64,000 nt of DNA. Origin: Methanoregula sp. PtaB.Bin085. Its GTDB lineage: Archaea > Halobacteriota > Methanomicrobia > Methanomicrobiales > Methanospirillaceae. This document shows, one piece after another, positions 12,074-63,753 of this stretch; within the stretch, counting starts at the first letter, position 1; each line of letters opens with the position of its first letter. The notes below the pieces were generated by a model that worked only from the letters and a program-made list of their open reading frames with translations, was not told the origin of the DNA and made no database searches. Made by a program: the position numbers and the translations under genes. The stretch lies in the NCBI RefSeq assembly GCF_002067035.1, contig NZ_MVQB01000053.1, forward strand, positions 1-64,000, written 5' to 3'.

Positions 12074-12262
12074 CTGACGCTCTCGGGGGCTCCGCTTCGC
12101 TCTGCCCCCGCCGCCGGGGCAGCCCCCGCATTGCGATATTCACTCAGAAGGTTAGTGCAATCTGTCACACGATCAGGGATACCGGTAATACAGAGATATC
12201 GCATGCGCCCCCGCACCCCGCAACGGGGGGCAGGGCTGGTGCAGGGGGGCTATCGGTTTAAC
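12074..12262 (+). repeat. Dispersed repeat B, copy 1
   Basis: Starts TGACGCTCTCGGGGGCTCC, continues CCCCCGCCGCCGGGGCAGCC and ATTGCGATATTCACTCAGAAGG, and ends with a GCGCCCCCGC...GGGGGGCAGGGCTGG tail. The same blocks in the same order occur at 35219-35407 and 59744-59960. It fills the gap between the HEAT gene and the next gene; no coding frame is supported. Confidence 0.7.
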
Positions 12263-35218: not shown

Positions 35219-35407
35219 CTGACGCTCTCGGGGGCTCCAGCACAGTGTGCTTCCGCCCCCGCCGCTGGGGCAGCCCCCACATTGCGATATCTACTCAGAA
35301 GGTTGACACAAAACAGTTGGATATGTGTTTCAACCGGTAATGCAGAGGCATCGCAATGCGCCCCCGCCCCCCGCGCCGGGGGGCAGGGTTGGCGCAAAGG
35401 GGGGTAA
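35219..35407 (+). repeat. Dispersed repeat B, copy 2
   Basis: CTGACGCTCTCGGGGGCTCC, CCGCCCCCGCCGCTGGGGCA, ATTGCGATATCTACTCAGAA and the GCGCCCCCGCCCCCCGC...GGGGGGCAGGG end match copy 1 nearly base for base, apart from a more variable centre. It ends one base before the fumB stop codon, splitting the fum genes from the kor genes. Confidence 0.75.
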
Positions 35408-55970: not shown

Positions 55971-56357
55971 TTATCCGGTCTTCCGTTGTGCGTTTTTTTT
56001 CTTTCCCTGTTTATGTGACTCACCGGAGAGAATCGCGACTACCCCGGTTTTCAGGACGGGAAGATCGTTTCTGATCGTTTCGAACACCGCCTCGTAATCC
56101 ACTCCGAAATAATGGTGCATGATCTTATCCCGCATCCCGGCCGTCGCCTTCCACGGAATATCCGGGTATTCCTTCCGGAGCGAGGACGAGACATTCTTGG
56201 CTGCTTCCCCGATGATCGTGAGCATGCGTTCGATCCCGGCGCGTTCGAGCGGGCGATCCCGGAGGTCAGATGCGGATGTGATGGTGCGGGAGAAATCCTC
56301 GATATGGTTTATGGCATCAAGGATATGATGGAGGTACGCCGGATCTTCCGGCTTCAT
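55971..56357 (-). CDS. hepT: HEPN toxin HepT
   Basis: 128 residues. HEPN-domain (DUF86) RNase toxin. The catalytic RxxxxH motif appears as RDKIMHHYFGVDY (the R and H of the R-x4-6-H signature), within YPDIPWKATAGMRDKIMHHY, which is the family hallmark. Its ATG overlaps the mntA stop. HepT is held inactive by MntA, which in characterised systems adenylylates a Tyr near the RxxxxH motif; the Tyr in HHYFGVDY is in the right place. The Lys/Arg-rich tail is variable. Confidence 0.9.
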   Translation of the reverse strand: MKPEDPAYLHHILDAINHIEDFSRTITSASDLRDRPLERAGIERMLTIIGEAAKNVSSSLRKEYPDIPWKATAGMRDKIMHHYFGVDYEAVFETIRNDLPVLKTGVVAILSGESHKQGKKKNAQRKTG

Positions 56358-56689
56358 CCAAAGATCACCACTTCATCGCGGCGGATCGGGCCCGCGAGAT
56401 ACGGGCTGACAGCATTCTCTGTCACCAGATCCACGTTCGTATGGGTGGCCTTTTTGATCTCATCCTCGATCTGTACAAGCTGGATCAGGCTTTTCGGGGT
56501 CCTGAACCGGACCAGGAGGTCAATATCGCTCTTTTTCCCTGCCTCCCCCCTCGCGTATGATCCAAATACGGCAATCCGTTCGGCACCATGCTTCTCCAGG
56601 ATTGCGATGACAGATTCACGGATCTTTTTATTCAGACTGTGTTTTGGCATATATCCCATTTCCCGTGGCTGTTCCTGAATAGTATTCAT
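56354..56689 (-). CDS. mntA: MntA-type minimal nucleotidyltransferase antitoxin
   Basis: 111 residues. Minimal nucleotidyltransferase with GSYARGEAGKKSDIDLLVRF: GSxAR...GxxSDxDLxV has the catalytic Asp pair, so it should be active. It neutralises HepT. Starts at the ATG at 56689 with GAGGA close before it; an internal ATG (MPKHSL) is possible. First gene of the pair. Confidence 0.9.
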   Translation of the reverse strand: MNTIQEQPREMGYMPKHSLNKKIRESVIAILEKHGAERIAVFGSYARGEAGKKSDIDLLVRFRTPKSLIQLVQIEDEIKKATHTNVDLVTENAVSPYLAGPIRRDEVVIFG

Positions 56690-56711
56690 TGTCCTCTTTC
56701 ATCATCTTTTT

Positions 56712-56728
56712 GCCGGATATATACCGGC
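56712..56728 (-). promoter_or_regulatory. TATA box within an inverted repeat, MntA/HepT promoter
   Basis: GCCGG, ATATATA, CCGGC: a TATA core flanked by perfect 5-bp inverted arms, about 25-40 bases before the mntA ATG. A protein bound to the arms would block TBP, as expected for an autoregulated pair. Confidence 0.5.
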
Positions 56729-56922
56729 CAAAAAACGGGGCGATCAGATTCCGGTCAGCGCCGCGAGCACCGCCTGGGCTACTACCGGCTCAACCCCCTC
56801 CGCGAGCGCGGTGCCTGCGGACGAGTCGCCTCCCGTGCCGGCCGCATCCGGAGTCTCTGAGGAGAATAGCGGGGTTCTTATGTCTGGCAGGTGTACGGGG
56901 CTATGGAAGGGAGTGGTGCACG

Positions 56923-57507
56923 GTGTCGATACACTGGACATCAGTTATCGCGAAAAATTGTATTACGATCGAACAGGAACTCGTGGGGTTCCCGTTCCAC
57001 AACCGCAACCTGCTCATCCGGGCTCTCCTCCGCAGGGCAGCATACCACCATAAGGATTTCCCGCAGGATTACCGGATGGCCGGGTTCCAGAACGGGATCG
57101 ATACCCTTGGCGATAAAATTCTCGATTTTGCCATTTACGATCATTTTATTCATACGTTCCTTGGGTATGAAACCATGAACCGGAGACAGATCAGGAGGAT
57201 CATCAGCGGCTGCCGGGAATGGTACAGCGCCAACGACATCCTCCACGAGTTTTCCCTGGACTGCATCATCCTCCAGAAATATATCATCTGGGGGACGGAT
57301 GAATTCGATACGCAGATCTGGGCGAAGGATGGTACGAAGATCCTGGCCGGTTGTTTTAAAGCCCTGGTCGGAGCCGTGTATGCGGATGCGGGCCTTGCCG
57401 GTGTCCGTACCCTGCTCGAAAATATCCGGTATTATGACACGATCGACAGCCTGCGGTTCCAGAAGGGACAGGCAAAGCGTGATTTCCGGAAGGCGGAAGA
57501 CGGGTGA
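56923..57507 (+). CDS. RNase III-fold protein with lost catalytic residues
   Basis: 194 residues from a GTG chosen because GGGAGTGGTG lies about five bases upstream and the predicted N terminus (IEQELVGFPFHNRNLLIRALLRRAAYHH) matches that of RNase III. The first metal site reads QNGIDTLGDKILDF (D60, D64 against Glu and Asp in RNase III), the second reads KILAGCFKALVGAVYADAG, where the usual DTxEALIG pair Asp/Glu is replaced by G143 and K146. There is no double-stranded RNA-binding domain. The protein is therefore probably not a standard nuclease and may bind RNA or have another role. It lies next to toxin-antitoxin genes but on the opposite strand. Confidence 0.7.
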   Translation: MSIHWTSVIAKNCITIEQELVGFPFHNRNLLIRALLRRAAYHHKDFPQDYRMAGFQNGIDTLGDKILDFAIYDHFIHTFLGYETMNRRQIRRIISGCREWYSANDILHEFSLDCIILQKYIIWGTDEFDTQIWAKDGTKILAGCFKALVGAVYADAGLAGVRTLLENIRYYDTIDSLRFQKGQAKRDFRKAEDG

Positions 57508-57614: not shown

Positions 57615-58013
57615 TTACGTCAGCAGATCCTGTGGTTCTCTTCTGCCCTTCTCAGTCCGGTCAAAATCACGGTCATAGCTGACGATTGTCAGGTTGTTCA
57701 GGTCAGCGATGGTGTATTGGTAGGCATCATCGAAGTCAAGATGGAACCGTGTTGATACTTCAGCAATTTTGGCAAAATTGTCCGGATCGAGCGAGAGAAT
57801 CCGAATCCCGCTCGCGAGGATATCCTCGTTGATGAATGTAAGGAAATCACCAGCCTTCTGTTCCCGCAGGTAAATAACCCCCAGCGTATGCAGGGAGAAA
57901 TCCGTCATATGGAGCAATGCAGGATCAACCCGGTAAAAAAAGTCTCTTACTTCACGGACATGCTGCCGTTTGAGAATATACTCGAGGAAAATATTGGTAT
58001 CAATGAGATACAC
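57615..58013 (-). CDS. PIN-domain toxin
   Basis: 132 residues. PIN fold: VYLIDTNIFLEYILKRQHV with the first Asp, an E in the LREQ-type helix region, HLDFDDAYQYTIADL with the second acidic pair and VSYDRDFDRTEKG with the last Asp. It is a VapC-like RNase. The GTG at 58013 directly follows the antitoxin stop; an ATG at 58031 inside the antitoxin gene is an alternative. It pairs with the DUF2281 antitoxin upstream. Confidence 0.85.
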   Translation of the reverse strand: MYLIDTNIFLEYILKRQHVREVRDFFYRVDPALLHMTDFSLHTLGVIYLREQKAGDFLTFINEDILASGIRILSLDPDNFAKIAEVSTRFHLDFDDAYQYTIADLNNLTIVSYDRDFDRTEKGRREPQDLLT

Positions 58014-58014
58014 G

Positions 58015-58260
58015 TTAATCCCGCCACTCATTGGCCTTATGCTGGAGGTCCACGGATGAATAACGGTTGCCGAGATATGCAAGAGAGCCTTCGGCAACAC
58101 AACGGAAGGTGGATGGCGATCGTTTCTTCGAACGCCGGACCAGTTCGTCGATGTAGTGGATTGCCTCGTCGCGCAGTTCGGGAGGAAGACTGCGAATCTT
58201 CTCTTCAACTGAATGCGTTGATGAAGACATTTCTGTACTATTATATTGGTCTTTGGACAT
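58015..58260 (-). CDS. DUF2281-type antitoxin
   Basis: 81 residues. Helix-rich: VEEKIRSLPPELRDEAIHYIDELVRR is the DUF2281 core, and the tail FRCVAEGSLAYLGNRYSSVD is present in the decayed copy at 55213. It lies directly before the PIN toxin gene, as antitoxins do. The ATG at 58260 has AGGATT upstream; an ATG at 58230 is also possible. Confidence 0.8.
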   Translation of the reverse strand: MSKDQYNSTEMSSSTHSVEEKIRSLPPELRDEAIHYIDELVRRSKKRSPSTFRCVAEGSLAYLGNRYSSVDLQHKANEWRD

Positions 58261-58371: not shown

Positions 58372-58890
58372 TCACGTCACCATCCCGGCCAGAATCCCCG
58401 CGATCTTCTCAGCGAGTGCCGGGTCCGCCACCTCCGCCAGCACGAGCCCGGCAACCACCACGAACAACGCCCAGAAGACCTTCTTCGTCTGCTCATTCTT
58501 CCCGAACGCCTCCAGCACTGCATCCGTGTCCGCCTTAACGGCGTAGCGGATGAGCTTGGGCAGGAACACGAACAGCGGCAGGAAGAGCACGGCTGCTGCG
58601 ATGAACGCGAGCGGCAGCGGCGCAAGGCCGGCAAACCAGAAGAACGCTGGCACCGCGATGTTGAGCGCCAGCAGCACTGCCATGCAGGTCTCGCCGGCGC
58701 AGAACCAGGTGCGGTACTCCGCCGGGTCTTCGGCCTTTTCTTCTTCCGTCATCACTGCCGGGTCGAACATGCCGATCGCGTGGAGCACGCCCCGGCAGAA
58801 GGTGCGGGTTGCCGCCGAGAGAGCGGGGCCGCAGGCCGGTTCCTGCCGGGGAGATGCCGGCACCAGGTCCTTCGGGATTTCCTCAGCCAT
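58372..58890 (-). CDS. Membrane protein of unknown function, last of a four-gene group
   Basis: 172 residues. A soluble start (about 60 residues), three hydrophobic stretches (CMAVLLALNIAVPAFFWFAG, LAFIAAAVLFLPLFVFLPKL, KVFWALFVVVAGLVLAEVA) with a charged loop between the second and third, and a short tail. GGAGG precedes the ATG at 58890 by seven bases. It follows the gene at 58965 on the same strand. No family recognised. Confidence 0.65.
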   Translation of the reverse strand: MAEEIPKDLVPASPRQEPACGPALSAATRTFCRGVLHAIGMFDPAVMTEEEKAEDPAEYRTWFCAGETCMAVLLALNIAVPAFFWFAGLAPLPLAFIAAAVLFLPLFVFLPKLIRYAVKADTDAVLEAFGKNEQTKKVFWALFVVVAGLVLAEVADPALAEKIAGILAGMVT

Positions 58891-58964
58891 TATCTGCCTC
58901 CGGCATGCAGCTGATTGCGAAGATTGCTGCTCTTCCCGCGATCCGGGTCTTGTGATCTGCCGTA

Positions 58965-59441
58965 TCAGCCGTCGTCCTCACCTTCCGCTGAAATAGCGAT
59001 CTCGAACACCGGGCTCGTATATCCCCGGTTTGCCGGTGAGAAGTCGCGTTCCCGGACCGGCTGGCTCCGGAGTCTGCGGGCGGTCCGGATCCGGACCGTG
59101 TGGATCCCCGGCGCCCGCGGGTACACCCGCCGGCCGGTCACGTCCCGCATCTCGCGGTACGGCGGGATCTCAAACCAGTCCGGCCAGAACCGCATCCCTC
59201 TAGGAATGTCGGTCCCGCGGAAAAGGTCCTGCAGGCGCTGCGGTCGCATGTTGTCGTACACGATATCCACGATCAGATCAGCATCTTCCGCATCCTCCGC
59301 GAGCTCAAGCTCGTAGAAGACCGGGTTCCGCCGGACCTCATCCTGTGTGAGTGGCGTTTCTCTCGTCAGCAGCTCAAGACCCGAAGCTGTGCCACGATAT
59401 AGGCCGGTTACGGTCGCGACGGGCGTTGTCTCAGTGCTCAT
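58965..59441 (-). CDS. Hypothetical soluble protein, third of a four-gene group
   Basis: 158 residues. Beta-rich and charged, with FYELELAEDAEDADLIVDIV, RFWPDWFEIPPYREMRD and a basic strand region (VRIRTARRLRSQPVRER). No signal peptide or membrane helix. GGAGG stands seven bases before the ATG and the start overlaps the small upstream gene by 11 bases. No family recognised. Confidence 0.65.
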   Translation of the reverse strand: MSTETTPVATVTGLYRGTASGLELLTRETPLTQDEVRRNPVFYELELAEDAEDADLIVDIVYDNMRPQRLQDLFRGTDIPRGMRFWPDWFEIPPYREMRDVTGRRVYPRAPGIHTVRIRTARRLRSQPVRERDFSPANRGYTSPVFEIAISAEGEDDG

Positions 59442-59595
59442 GGCACGCCTCCTTCAGCCGGTCATGTTCGTCCTGCAGCCTGCGGAACTCCTCCGCCACC
59501 TCGTCGAATCTGCCGATCCGCTGGTGGATCGCAAACAGGCACGGGTAGAGGGGGAGCACCGCGGTCAGGACGACTGCTGTGATTTCCAGTTCCAT
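59431..59595 (-). CDS. 54-residue protein with one helix and a coiled-coil tail
   Basis: Too short to be listed in usual gene predictions, but well supported: AGGAGG lies nine bases before the ATG at 59595. The sequence starts with MELEITAVVLTAVLPLYPCL, a hydrophobic N-terminal helix with a Cys, and continues IHQRIGRFDEVAEEFRRL, QDEHDRLKEACHEH, a charged coiled-coil-like tail. The stop lies 11 bases inside the next gene, so the genes are coupled. Size and layout resemble a small membrane anchor or spanin-like protein. Role unknown. Confidence 0.65.
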   Translation of the reverse strand: MELEITAVVLTAVLPLYPCLFAIHQRIGRFDEVAEEFRRLQDEHDRLKEACHEH

Positions 59596-59743
59596 AGTGT
59601 GTTACCTCCTGAATGTTTCCCTGAAACATGAAGGAAGAGAAGGACGGCATCAGCCGTCCTTCGGCCTCCTTTTGTTTTCCGGAGAGGAGACGGCAGGTCC
59701 CCTCTCCGTTTCACTCTTTTACTCGAAAATTCCGGAAGGGATT

Positions 59744-59960
59744 TGACGCTCTTGGGGGCTCCTCTTACGCTCCGCCCCCGCCGCGTGGGCATCCCCCGCA
59801 TTGCGAGGGGACGGGATTACCGGGTCCGGGAATTCTTTCGAAATTCCGGCTTCCGGTTTTTTTCCGAAATCCCGAAACCCGGGTCGCGTCCCATCCCACT
59901 GTGCCCCGTCCCCCCAATGGGGGGACTGGTGGCACAAGAGGGGGGTCGTCAATCCCCTTA
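59744..59960 (+). repeat. Dispersed repeat B, copy 3 (diverged)
   Basis: TTGACGCTCTTGGGGGCTCC, GCCCCCGCCGCGTGGGCATC and CCCCCGCATTGCGA match copies 1 and 2; the middle is different, with a strong inverted motif CGGGAATTCTTTCG/CGAAATTCCGG; the end keeps CCCCCCAATGGGGGGACTGG and a GAGGGGGG tail. It separates the first gene of the four-gene group from the rest. Confidence 0.65.
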
Positions 59961-60013
59961 CAGGATTTTCACGACGTTTTTCATTCTCCAGCCTCACCCT
60001 TTCAGAGTTCGGC

Positions 60014-60517
60014 TTACGCGAGCGCCGCCACCGAATCCGCCCAGGTCTCGACCTTGGTGCGGATGGCGTCGTCCGAGTAGGACGTGAGGTTCACGCGGTC
60101 GCGGGCGATGGTCACCATGTACAGCTCCCCGTTGGGGTCACGGCACCGGAGCGTGGCCGAATAGGTCTCACTTGCCGGATCGCGAACTGGTGTGCCACCG
60201 TGAGCTGCCGTGAGTGCAGTGTCCGCGAGGAGCGCTGCTGCACCGGCATTGAACCCGGCGATGCTGCTGAACTTGCCGGACTGGTTCCCCACGGGTTTTG
60301 CCAGGGCATCCTGGTACACGACCTTTGCAACATAGGTCTCCTTCGACTTCTCCACCGGCGGGTGCATGACACCGGCCTCGGTATAGGCAACGCAGCCGAA
60401 CGGGTTTGCCGTGATGACTGCCTGCACGATGCTGTCGAATGCCGATACATCTGCGATCGGGGTCGCGAGTTCGCGGACCGCGGTCTTGGTTATGGTTTTC
60501 TGTACGAAATCTGCCAT
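60014..60517 (-). CDS. Hypothetical protein, first of a four-gene group
   Basis: 167 residues. Soluble alpha/beta protein: VQKTITKTAVRELATPIADV, DSIVQAVITANPFGCVAY, YVAKVVYQDALAKPVGN, a Gly/Ala/Leu-rich stretch (SIAGFNAGAAALLADTA) and a closing VNLTSYSDDAIRTKVETW. GGAGG is placed eight bases before the ATG at 60517, and an unusual hairpin-rich leader precedes it. No signal peptide or recognised domain. Regular strands and Ala-rich segments would suit a structural or self-assembling protein, but this is only an impression. Confidence 0.65.
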   Translation of the reverse strand: MADFVQKTITKTAVRELATPIADVSAFDSIVQAVITANPFGCVAYTEAGVMHPPVEKSKETYVAKVVYQDALAKPVGNQSGKFSSIAGFNAGAAALLADTALTAAHGGTPVRDPASETYSATLRCRDPNGELYMVTIARDRVNLTSYSDDAIRTKVETWADSVAALA

Positions 60518-60576
60518 TGTGTTTTTCCTCCTGTTTTTCTTTTCATTCTGATTTGAGATCCGAAGCGGGTCTCTGG

Positions 60577-60646
60577 TCGAAGGATGGTGTGTCATCCTTC
60601 GAAGTTCGACATATTGCCTCACTTCTCTTCGGAGAGGTTCTCCGAA
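60577..60646 (-). promoter_or_regulatory. Hairpin-rich 5' leader of the 167-residue protein gene
   Basis: Two perfect stems lie in the leader: TCGAAGGATG, loop GTGTGT, CATCCTTCGA (60577-60602), and TTCGGAGA, loop GGT, TCTCCGAA (60628-60646). A TATA box CACATATAC on this strand near 60771-60779 would start the transcript around 60745, giving a leader of about 230 bases, which is long for this window. It could be a structured regulatory leader. Confidence 0.5.
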
Positions 60647-60779
60647 CCTCACCGATTCTCCTCAGCGGGGTTTTGGGAAACCTCTCTGATCTGGCAGGAG
60701 TGGTCCGCCCCTGCTTCGGTTCATCGGGCCCTTTGACAAAAAACCATGGAACCGAATGGATTATGGCCTTGTATATGTG

Positions 60780-61120
60780 AGCGGTTTTTTGAAAATTCGG
60801 AGAGATTATTGCGGCCTGATTGAAAAAATTCCAAAGGAACAGGGCTGTATGGAAGGAACGTAAAATGTTCCTCCGGGGTGAGGTTTTTTGCCCGGGTAAC
60901 CAATCCGGACACAAGCGGCGTGATCGGAGTACTCCGGGTGTACCATTCCCCACGCCATTCCCGGTACTATTCACGAAATAGTTCCGGTAATCACTGGTAC
61001 TCCCGGATGCCGGCGGCATACCGTGCCCCGGACCCGCGCCATACATCCAAACCTTTTTTGCGGGCGTAACGGATACTGTGAATACACCAAAATATCCACC
61101 GGGTGTTACGGGATACGGCC
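60780..61120. other. Gap upstream of the membrane-anchored protein gene
   Basis: About 340 bases without a supported gene. A minus-strand frame crosses it but has no start signal and reads like a shadow. Low-GC patches (AAAATTCGGAGAGATTATTG) are mixed with GC-rich ones; no repeat A, B or C copy is seen. Confidence 0.4.
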
Positions 61121-61957
61121 ATGGAACGGAACAAGGCAATCACTGTTGCAATCGCCATCGCCGGTCTCCTTCTTGTTGCAGGAATTCTCTTTCTCGCATC
61201 CGGCCTGGTGTTCATGAACTGTGCGTCCTGCCTCCCGTTCATGGGCCAGGTGACCCAAAGCGGCAGCGATGCGGTCATCCACCTGTACTACAGCCCGGGC
61301 TGTTACCGGGGCGGCTGCGGGGTACACGGGATCACACTCGATGACGTGCAGGCCCTGCAGGTCGAGATCATCCCGGAAGGCCCGGGCGCCGGGGAGCGTA
61401 TCGTGCGGGAGTTCCCGGCCTCGGAGTTCGGGGACAAACCGGAGATCCTCATTCCCCTGAACGACACGCTGACGCCGGCATGGAGGACGCTGGTGATCGC
61501 GACCATGGTATACAAGGACGGCGTGAGGGAGCAGGTCGCGTACAGGAGCCTCGGGCCGGAAGACACGCCGTCGGCACAGCATTCCGCACAGGCGTTATCC
61601 GCCCGGTTCATCCCCCCGGCTGCCGGCGGTGATGTCATCTGCGCTGTCCAGGAGCGGGGAGCGTACTTCCCGGACGAAGGCTTCGGCTGGGGCACCTGGT
61701 TCATCCTGTATGCCAACGGCACCGGCCTCTCGAAGAGCTACAATTTCCGCATTGACAAAACGGTGCCCGAGCCGGGGAAGCGCCGGGTCCTCACGGAAAT
61801 GCCCGCCGGCAACGTGACCATTTCGACCGAGACCACAGACCGGATCTTCTGGTCAGAGAGCGGCGGGGTGCTCACGATCGATCTGGCGGGGATCAGGAAG
61901 GAGTACGTGGCAACGAGAGATGCTGCGGGGATTATTACTGCGGTGAAGGCGAAGTGA
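61121..61957 (+). CDS. Membrane-anchored extracytoplasmic protein of unknown function
   Basis: 278 residues from the ATG at 61121. One N-terminal helix (7-31, AITVAIAIAGLLLVAGILFLASGLV), then CASCLP and, a little later, SPGCYRGGCG, four cysteines that could bind a metal or form disulphides. The rest is a beta-rich domain (LVIATMVYKDGVREQVAY, WGTWFILYANGTGLSKSYNF, GGVLTIDLAGIRKEYVAT). No family recognised. Probably outside the cell. Confidence 0.65.
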   Translation: MERNKAITVAIAIAGLLLVAGILFLASGLVFMNCASCLPFMGQVTQSGSDAVIHLYYSPGCYRGGCGVHGITLDDVQALQVEIIPEGPGAGERIVREFPASEFGDKPEILIPLNDTLTPAWRTLVIATMVYKDGVREQVAYRSLGPEDTPSAQHSAQALSARFIPPAAGGDVICAVQERGAYFPDEGFGWGTWFILYANGTGLSKSYNFRIDKTVPEPGKRRVLTEMPAGNVTISTETTDRIFWSESGGVLTIDLAGIRKEYVATRDAAGIITAVKAK

Positions 61958-62038
61958 GGGGACTATGCTGCTGCCGGCAGGACCATAACAACATTATCTC
62001 TGTACCGGTAACCTGAGCACAGGCAAGGGTGAAAATCC

Positions 62039-62269
62039 ATGGAGTCCGGCGAACTCACGTACCTGAGCGATGAGCAGGAGACGTATGTCCGGCTGCTCCG
62101 GGCTGCCGTCCCCCGGGACAGCGACAGCCGGGCCCTCGTCTACATCCTGTACAACCCCGGGTCAACATCCAAGGAGATCTTCCTTGGCACCGGCATCTGT
62201 TTCGGGACCCTGTCCCTGGCGCTGGGCCGGCTCGGGGAGCAGGGCTGGTGGGATAGGGGGAGTTCCTGA
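62039..62269 (+). CDS. Small HTH-like protein
   Basis: 76 residues, no membrane segment. Helical with a pattern like a winged helix: ETYVRLLRAAVPRDSDSR, SKEIFLGTGICFGTLSLALGRLGEQG fits a helix-turn-helix recognition unit in which NPGSTSKEIFLGTG starts the first helix. It may be a small DNA-binding regulator. The start ATG is the first in frame. Confidence 0.55.
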   Translation: MESGELTYLSDEQETYVRLLRAAVPRDSDSRALVYILYNPGSTSKEIFLGTGICFGTLSLALGRLGEQGWWDRGSS

Positions 62270-62498
62270 CGCGGGATGTGGCCGGATATTTTTACCAAAA
62301 CGGGTAAAAATCGCCGTTGGATGGCAGCGATCCGCCAAAGAGACCATGATCAAAAACCGGAAGAGATGCGTGTTCGGAGAATTATGTTTCACGCCGGGTT
62401 TCCATCCATGAAAACCGTACGTATTCTTGTGAAAAAAATGCGGAAGAAAAATATAATACAGCCTGCATCATATGAGACGTTGCCGGCAGACACATGGT
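62270..62498. other. Gap with promoter of the next gene
   Basis: AAAATATAATACAG at 62449-62462 is a TATA box about 40 bases before the ATG at 62499. It makes an upstream ATG at 62472 less likely. A short Lys/Arg-rich frame crossing this gap is not supported. Confidence 0.45.
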
Positions 62499-63467
62499 AT
62501 GACTGATGATGGAGAGCGGGGGAAATTCTCAGGACTCGAAAATCCGGTCTTCCTAGCCTATGCATTGACCGGAACATTCCTCCTCATCTTTCTCCTGGTC
62601 GTCCTGGAAGGACCAAAATACAATGACAACTTTAAAAATCCTGTCTGGGCGGTATTTCTGGCAACAGTCTGTATCCTGCCGCCGTTCCTGCCGGAACTGA
62701 TCCTGTTTTTTAAAAAACACCTGACCGGTTTTTCCTACATGGGTTTTTCCGTCAGCTTTTCTGATATGAAGATGGACATGTCCTGTTCCTGGGACGAACT
62801 GAAACTGGATCATGTGGAAGGTGATGGAGAATTACCGGGCAGCAGGAAGGTATCTCCCGATGGCGTGATAGAGAGGATACGCATCCTGCAGCAGAGGGGG
62901 TGCACCCAGTACCTGCTTGACCTGTATGACGGCCGGTCCTGGAACCTGGAACTGTTGTATTTTTACCTTGTGTTTATCTCCAGCACAACAGGGATCCGGC
63001 AGATAATCTTTGTCGGAACGTCCAGAAATTCAAAGCAGACATTCATCGGCAGGGCAAAACTGGACAGGCTGATTGAGGAGCTGGACCGTGTCTATCCGGA
63101 GTATTGTGCATCTGCAGCCTGTGGCATCAGCCGGGAAAATGAGATTCCCCTTGGAGATGAATATGAAACGGTGCTGAAGGAGGCGTGGGAAAGGTACACA
63201 ACTGGGCTCGCTGTGTACCTGCAGCAGGCCAATAAACATGGGGTTACCAGGATCGATGCTGCATGGGTGGCCCGGTTCTGCAGGGAGTTCCTCAATACCG
63301 ACAGCGTCGAGTACCATGAGTGTACGAATGAAGAGGATGCCAGGGCAGTCCTCCGGTGCAGGAACCGGTGCATCGCTGTTGTTGACCGCGGGCAGTACAG
63401 GTTCACGATAGACCGGGACAAATTCGCCCTGGCTTTTGCCCGGAAGGTCATGTGTGTGAAAAGATAA
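62499..63467 (+). CDS. Membrane protein with cytoplasmic domain, unknown function
   Basis: 322 residues from the ATG at 62499. Two N-terminal helices (FLAYALTGTFLLIFLLVVL, NPVWAVFLATVCILPPFLPELILFF), then a cytoplasmic domain of about 230 residues with VIERIRILQQRGCTQYLLDLYD, LLYFYLVFISSTTGIRQIIFVG, KLDRLIEELDRVYPEYC and ARAVLRCRNRCIAVVDRGQYRFTID. No catalytic motif or family recognised. Alternative start at 62472. Confidence 0.65.
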   Translation: MTDDGERGKFSGLENPVFLAYALTGTFLLIFLLVVLEGPKYNDNFKNPVWAVFLATVCILPPFLPELILFFKKHLTGFSYMGFSVSFSDMKMDMSCSWDELKLDHVEGDGELPGSRKVSPDGVIERIRILQQRGCTQYLLDLYDGRSWNLELLYFYLVFISSTTGIRQIIFVGTSRNSKQTFIGRAKLDRLIEELDRVYPEYCASAACGISRENEIPLGDEYETVLKEAWERYTTGLAVYLQQANKHGVTRIDAAWVARFCREFLNTDSVEYHECTNEEDARAVLRCRNRCIAVVDRGQYRFTIDRDKFALAFARKVMCVKR

Positions 63468-63753
63468 CCGGCCGGGGAGCTGCTCTCTTGGATCGAATCC
63501 GGGATCCGGGATGAGCGGGCGCGGTTTTCAGCTGAGATCCGTGGGGTGAGGGGGGGGCTGTGTTAGGCAAGTGTGAAAAAAACCCAAACCCTTAACGTTA
63601 CAAAAATGAATCCCTCTTCCGAGCACACATGGCCGAATGCATCCCCGACCGTCTTTCCGCAAAGGCAAGCCGGAACAAGCATGTTGAATTTTCGGCCGGG
63701 AGTTGGGAAGTATCAAGGAAAGGGGAACCTGGAAAATCTTTTTTTTACCTGGA

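Follow-up and report, generated by a model that had tools for sequence, protein, structure and literature searches.

Within the window, the stretch of 64,000 nucleotides of Methanoregula sp. PtaB.Bin085 analysed here, four co-oriented genes lie together on the minus strand. The core gene, g1 (60014..60517), recognized as an open reading frame and by profile search and modelled with AlphaFold, encodes a 167-aa soluble protein that belongs to an order-wide, multicopy family. Its partner, g2 (59431..59595), encodes a 54-aa single-pass membrane protein, here called type A, made up of one hydrophobic segment and a charged tail. The two remaining genes encode a 158-aa protein predicted to form an Ig-like beta sandwich (g3, 58965..59441) and a 172-aa membrane protein whose hydrophobic helices were read from the sequence (g4, 58372..58890). 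This arrangement agrees with an earlier note on the same DNA, which had also pointed to a GGAGG site at each gene. The motif precedes the start in all four genes of the module; a lenient background count over the window finds it at 4 of 53 ORFs that do not overlap and reach at least 150 aa.

The tight spacing described for the last three genes is seen in the 11-nt overlap of g2 and g3 and the 74 nt between g3 and g4; the first gene stands apart, with 418 nt between g1 and g2. Within this gap lies a dispersed repeat, some 60 nt long (59744..59806), further copies of which are found at 12075-12136 and 35220-35287 in the window, and another near a second g1 copy in the same genome. The suggestion that the genes are strongly translated fits their Shine-Dalgarno sites and otherwise has little behind it. 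The codon index of g1 is higher than that of 41 of 51 window genes, measured against an imperfect reference set, and codon usage lends weak support to the possibility of high expression. A search of the literature found no usable published expression data for the g1 family.

In a collection of named genomes, the relatives of the window's genome are Methanoregula and other Methanomicrobiales. When 38 congeneric genomes were compared, none had a counterpart of the DNA upstream of the cassette (60950-63480), which places the window copy in strain-specific DNA. At the other end, a PIN-domain gene and a DUF2281 gene adjoin the cassette (57615-58260; Pfam). Beyond them are a gene whose product has a ribonuclease III-like domain (56689-57507; Pfam E 1e-8) and, from sequence reading only, a nucleotidyltransferase/HepT-like pair (55971-56689). 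RNase III is unusual in archaea.

The gene 1 family

Of 67 Methanomicrobiales genomes sampled, 62 contain relatives detected by a profile of g1, each with 1 to 10 copies; 229 genomes from elsewhere in the phylum contain none. No significant match to g1 was found in Pfam, NCBIfam, PHROGs, or PADLOC, and the family is unnamed, with no model in the libraries searched. Its members are well conserved, with a mean column identity of 65% in the alignment, and the other copies in the window genome share 57-65% protein identity with the window g1. Most are acidic, with a mean pI of 4.9.

The structure predictions proposed in the earlier note for the 167- and 158-residue proteins were made for both. The AlphaFold model of g1 is confident (pLDDT 92.7) and has antiparallel strands with helices. 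Its fold matches include TBP, triphosphate tunnel, and Bet v 1 structures, all with Z under 7; these are middling values, as expected of a common alpha-beta arrangement, and suggest no clear relative. Comparison by sequence with solved structures also found no relative (best E 0.063). The g3 model matches Ig-like sandwiches in general, with Z under 8 and no specific relative; an AGS-C Ig-like domain is listed amid many unrelated sandwiches.

The proposal that the genes form an undescribed system is supported. The genes recur together, and g2, g3, and g4, like g1, have no significant family in the same four libraries, apart from a weak match of g2 to a PHROG family of unknown function (E 0.002). 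The proposal of a captured viral module is not supported: g1 has no relative among viral contigs (IMG/VR scan) or phage records, PHROGs gave no strong match for any of the four window proteins, and viral origin was rejected. Taken together, the linkage, distribution, and leader element found by computation identify an order-specific, undescribed gene module with a dedicated leader element.

Membrane partners and additions to the module

Most g1 copies lie near a small membrane protein of one of three types: type A (54 aa), to which g2 belongs, type B (about 40 aa), and type C (about 71 aa). Type C genes lie upstream of g1 and are divergently transcribed; all those found in six genomes adjoin g1 (13 of 13 places). 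No recognized partner was present at 25 of 123 classified g1 copies, recognition being based on patterns. When partner type was mapped onto the g1 tree, at least 27 changes were required, compared with 72 for shuffled labels and a minimum of 5. This number is far below the one and far above the other, and therefore the partners are inherited yet often swapped. The type C peptide also has a weak match to a phage family, phrog_1103 (E 9.5e-5).

Among 60 genomes searched, g3 and g4 are confined to Methanoregula, and they appear to be an addition to the module in this genus. The earlier note took independent occurrence of the genes as evidence against a system. In most of the order g1 does occur without g3 and g4, and in five near-closed genomes full-length g3 was seen only with g1, following it in all 12 places. 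Many shortened, C-terminal pieces of g4 are scattered across Methanoregula genomes (G000 and relatives). Hints of a SLATT/4TM type of effector in g4 and g2 fall below significance: 0.56 for g4 to NCBIfam SLATT_1, and 0.033 for g2 to 4TM, the best PADLOC match for the module. Together with the unspecific AGS-C match of g3, these are the signs seen of a cyclase, sensor, or effector domain of the kind that marks SMODS/CBASS/Pycsar-type membrane effector systems.

Copies within genomes

In a Methanoculleus-like genus, g1 copies are 90-98% identical in DNA inside each of four genomes examined, a figure that leaves out one divergent extra copy in G058. Between species of this genus the copies are 62-93% identical, even where they have at least roughly 1 kb of upstream sequence in common. 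The similarity between copies runs from the type C gene across the spacer and g1 to the terminator, and ends there or soon after. Such a pattern is the result of concerted evolution or of repeated re-copying. The common flank holds toxin-antitoxin-like and AlbA-like genes, identified by sequence reading, in shuffled order, and for this reason no choice was made between the two. Copies within one Methanoregula genome are more diverged, so the homogeneity is not order-wide. In the Methanoculleus-like genus, 40-64 nt tails of the type C gene recur upstream of g1 at the junctions of AlbA-like and nucleotidyltransferase/HepT-like modules (L157, L168, L172, and L173), and resemble a recombination site.

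Concertedly evolving gene families have been described in prokaryotes, with dispersed paralogs that resemble each other more closely inside one genome than across species; the families listed often form complexes or homopolymers (PMC6053082). The g1 family is absent from the seven archaeal cases reported there, and its re-copying by insertion is possible.

The leader of the window copy

The leader region of g1 covers 60518..60740 on the minus strand, with a putative 5′ end. It folds at -89.9 kcal/mol with a z of -5.1, a value equalled in none of 200 shuffles. Two perfect stems noticed previously are present in this strongly folded region: a 10-bp hairpin with a loop of 6 (60577..60602) and an 8-bp hairpin with a loop of 3 (60628..60646), both on the minus strand. 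They lie outside the part that is shared across the family. The shared part is a smaller, third element, unnoticed earlier, at 60720..60738 (minus strand). Identified by alignment and folding, it has the sequence TGTCAAAGGGCCCGATGAA, a box with the palindrome GGGCCC.

In the window the inner arm of the element has three pairs, TCA/TGA, only, and an eight-pair stem (60715-60722 with 60749-60756) encloses it. A TATA-like stretch at 60760..60785 on the minus strand is the probable promoter region, judged by its position relative to the element and by the upstream alignment. A strict pattern for the element has zero matches in the window's own genome, where variants are present at other g1 copies (L042, L043, and L044). 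The window copy is therefore weak, and the claim of an element is drawn from the family and not from the window. Rfam covariance models gave no match at gathering score in the window, and for the leader there was none even at E values up to 1.

The leader element across the family

Evidence for the element comes from pattern scans and covariation counts. Alignment of leaders revealed a recurring box, TGTC-AAA-GGGGCCCC-CGA-GACA, with variants such as GCCC-AA-GGGCCC-AA-GGGC and CACCC-AAA-GGCGCC-CGA-GGGTG. The loops are self-complementary: GGGCCC, GGGGCCCC, and GGGCGCCC, with CCCGGG in other families of the order. Across nine whole genomes, all 23 matches to the strict pattern lie upstream of g1 on the same strand, 43-259 nt from its start. 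In Methanoregula the distance from element to g1 is about 30-280 nt, and promoter-like sequence continues upstream of the element. The CCCGGG-loop design, which differs in sequence, has 18 distinct matches in 16 genomes; in 16 of the 18 it lies directly before g1 on the same strand, at 40-45 nt. The other two matches (L210 and L219) have no g1 inside the fetched 3 kb. The element is almost confined to the g1 family, and several g1 copies do not have it.

The arms of the hairpin are paired in 198 of 208 cells, compared with a mean of 153 and a maximum of 168 after shuffling; this count is generous and inflated, as the hairpins were picked by a pairing criterion, a selection that the shuffles preserve only partly. 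Changes on both sides of the arms are seen at several positions, and U-G pairs are present. Depending on the copy, the arms are 9 to 15 nt apart, and the left flank is AAA with a right flank that is not TTT. The loop stays self-complementary through changes in sequence, with CCUGGG able to self-pair only through G-U; in many copies both this property and the stem are kept. Folding energies predict that a dimer is 12-21 kcal/mol more stable than two monomers, with the GGAACC variant as the exception. In the upstream alignment the element stands at a fixed distance after a TATA-like stretch, which makes a position at the 5′ terminus of the transcript likely.

Comparison with known systems

In layout, the nearest system known to us is the DUF1659-DUF2922-YvrJ triad of Firmicutes (PF07872, PF11148, and PF12841), a likeness that carries no claim of membership. 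Both are tightly spaced sets in variable DNA, in which one or more small, soluble alpha-beta proteins precede a single-pass membrane peptide. The archaeal g1 differs in being a single chain of 167 aa, and its module has a dedicated leader element and no wall hydrolase seen as a neighbour. The Firmicutes triad is plasmid-borne, and cell-wall hydrolases and recombinases are frequent neighbours. Plasmid loci were fetched with a DUF2922 consensus as the query, which matched annotated DUF2922 genes. At four Firmicutes plasmid loci (L132, L133, L137, and L138) sets of DUF1659-DUF2922(-YvrJ) adjoin wall hydrolases, and two of these sets lie behind a ComK or sigma-factor gene. On inspection, g1 could pass for a homologue of DUF2922 or DUF1659; this idea was rejected, hhalign scoring it at the level of the reversed controls. 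Pfam gave no match for g1, and neither domain had a match in the window's own genome.

For the leader, the closest parallel to the proposed mechanism is the kissing-loop signal of retroviruses, again with no claim of membership. The dimerization initiation site (DIS) of HIV-1 lies in leader RNA and consists of a short stem capped by a GC-rich, palindromic loop (PMC4588261), and the archaeal element has the same make-up. It differs in heading a cellular, multicopy family of archaea; the likeness is one of stem and loop only, with no relation claimed.

Interpretation

Our tentative preference, held at somewhat under an even chance, is that the window carries one Methanoregula-type copy of a Methanomicrobiales module whose core protein is tethered to the membrane, probably self-assembles, and is controlled by a leader of its own. 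The small single-pass partner would anchor the soluble g1 subunit to the inner side of the membrane, where g1 would probably self-assemble. Within-genome homogeneity in the four Methanoculleus-like genomes was counted in favour of this reading; published cases link such a pattern to complexes and homopolymers (PMC6053082). In Methanoregula, the Ig-like g3 and the membrane protein g4 may serve as accessory parts added by the genus. Transcription would start at or near the element, judging from the position of the TATA-like stretch, so that the hairpin opens the message. Two messages may then kiss through the self-complementary loop, or the hairpin may be bound by g1 or by a dedicated regulator; either route would tune the stability or translation of the whole set of paralogs together. 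Binding by g1 itself is possible, although the protein is mostly acidic. A more specific proposal is that leaders of paralogs dimerize by means of palindromic loops, pairing both with identical leaders and with those of other paralogs, and that the cell senses or balances joint output by mRNA-mRNA kissing; we regard this as conceivable and rather doubtful.

A stem with a palindromic loop in RNA is always a dyad in DNA too, and the element may instead be an operator, with a dimer of a dedicated transcription factor binding TGTC-n-GGGGCCCC-n-GACA near the start site of g1 copies; the proteins could then act as described above or in some other way. Its fixed place after the TATA-like box is consistent with this, as is its near-confinement to one gene family, which is what a regulon operator would show. 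The variable distance between arms (9-15 nt), the left AAA not mirrored by TTT on the right, and the U-G pairs in the arms together with one loop that self-pairs by G-U all argue the other way, and we consider an operator unlikely. The variable arm spacing, asymmetric flank, and G-U pairs favour an RNA reading; none is decisive. The palindromic element may also be a terminal sequence, not a regulator, of a mobile cassette that uses an unknown route of transposition. Near-identical copies occur in different flanks, with similarity ending at the edges of the module, and the upstream flank of the window copy is missing from 38 congeners. In Methanoregula, however, the element stands at varying distances of about 30-280 nt from g1 with promoter-like sequence further upstream, there is no linked transposase, and an unsystematic look at the other end showed no matching element. 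This makes a mobile cassette very improbable as the explanation.

Two further explanations concern the proteins, and both seem to us quite unlikely. One is a selfish or defensive pair, in which g1 or the leader restrains a toxic or effector activity of the small membrane peptide, with g3 as a sensor and g4 as a second membrane effector. The several types of small hydrophobic partner and the many decayed pieces of g4 would fit this, as would toxin-antitoxin genes near several copies (including the PIN and DUF2281 genes beside the window cassette and a nucleotidyltransferase/HepT-like pair read from sequence) and the AGS-C domain in the g3 model list, amid its many unrelated sandwiches. Toxin-antitoxin and defence systems are sporadic, however, unlike a strongly conserved g1 that is near-universal in its order, and PADLOC gave no significant match (best 0.033). 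The other is a domesticated plasmid or virus module, an archaeal counterpart of the Firmicutes triad. The layout is the same, with a single-pass peptide coming after small alpha-beta proteins, the order of strands and helices appears similar in the g1 model, and type C has its weak match to phrog_1103. Against this, g1 compared with DUF2922 and DUF1659 profiles scored no better than reversed controls, comparison of type A with YvrJ gave a probability of 6% (0.6% for the reversed control), and g1 lacks viral or phage relatives in IMG/VR and phage records.

Significance for the Methanomicrobiales

Membrane tethering, self-assembly, and mRNA dimerization are put forward here as hypotheses, and the function of the protein is one that we infer. 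Hypothetical proteins account for 26 of 62 published signature clusters of Methanomicrobiales (PMC2686161). The g1 family is near-universal and multicopy in a whole order of methanogens, yet has no model in the libraries searched. If its leader element acts as RNA, mRNA dimerization in archaea becomes directly testable, and if kissing between leaders is true, archaea would have a dedicated element for mRNA dimerization. If the element is an operator, a regulon has been named. Either way, the g1 family offers a way into the features that distinguish Methanomicrobiales from other methanogens.
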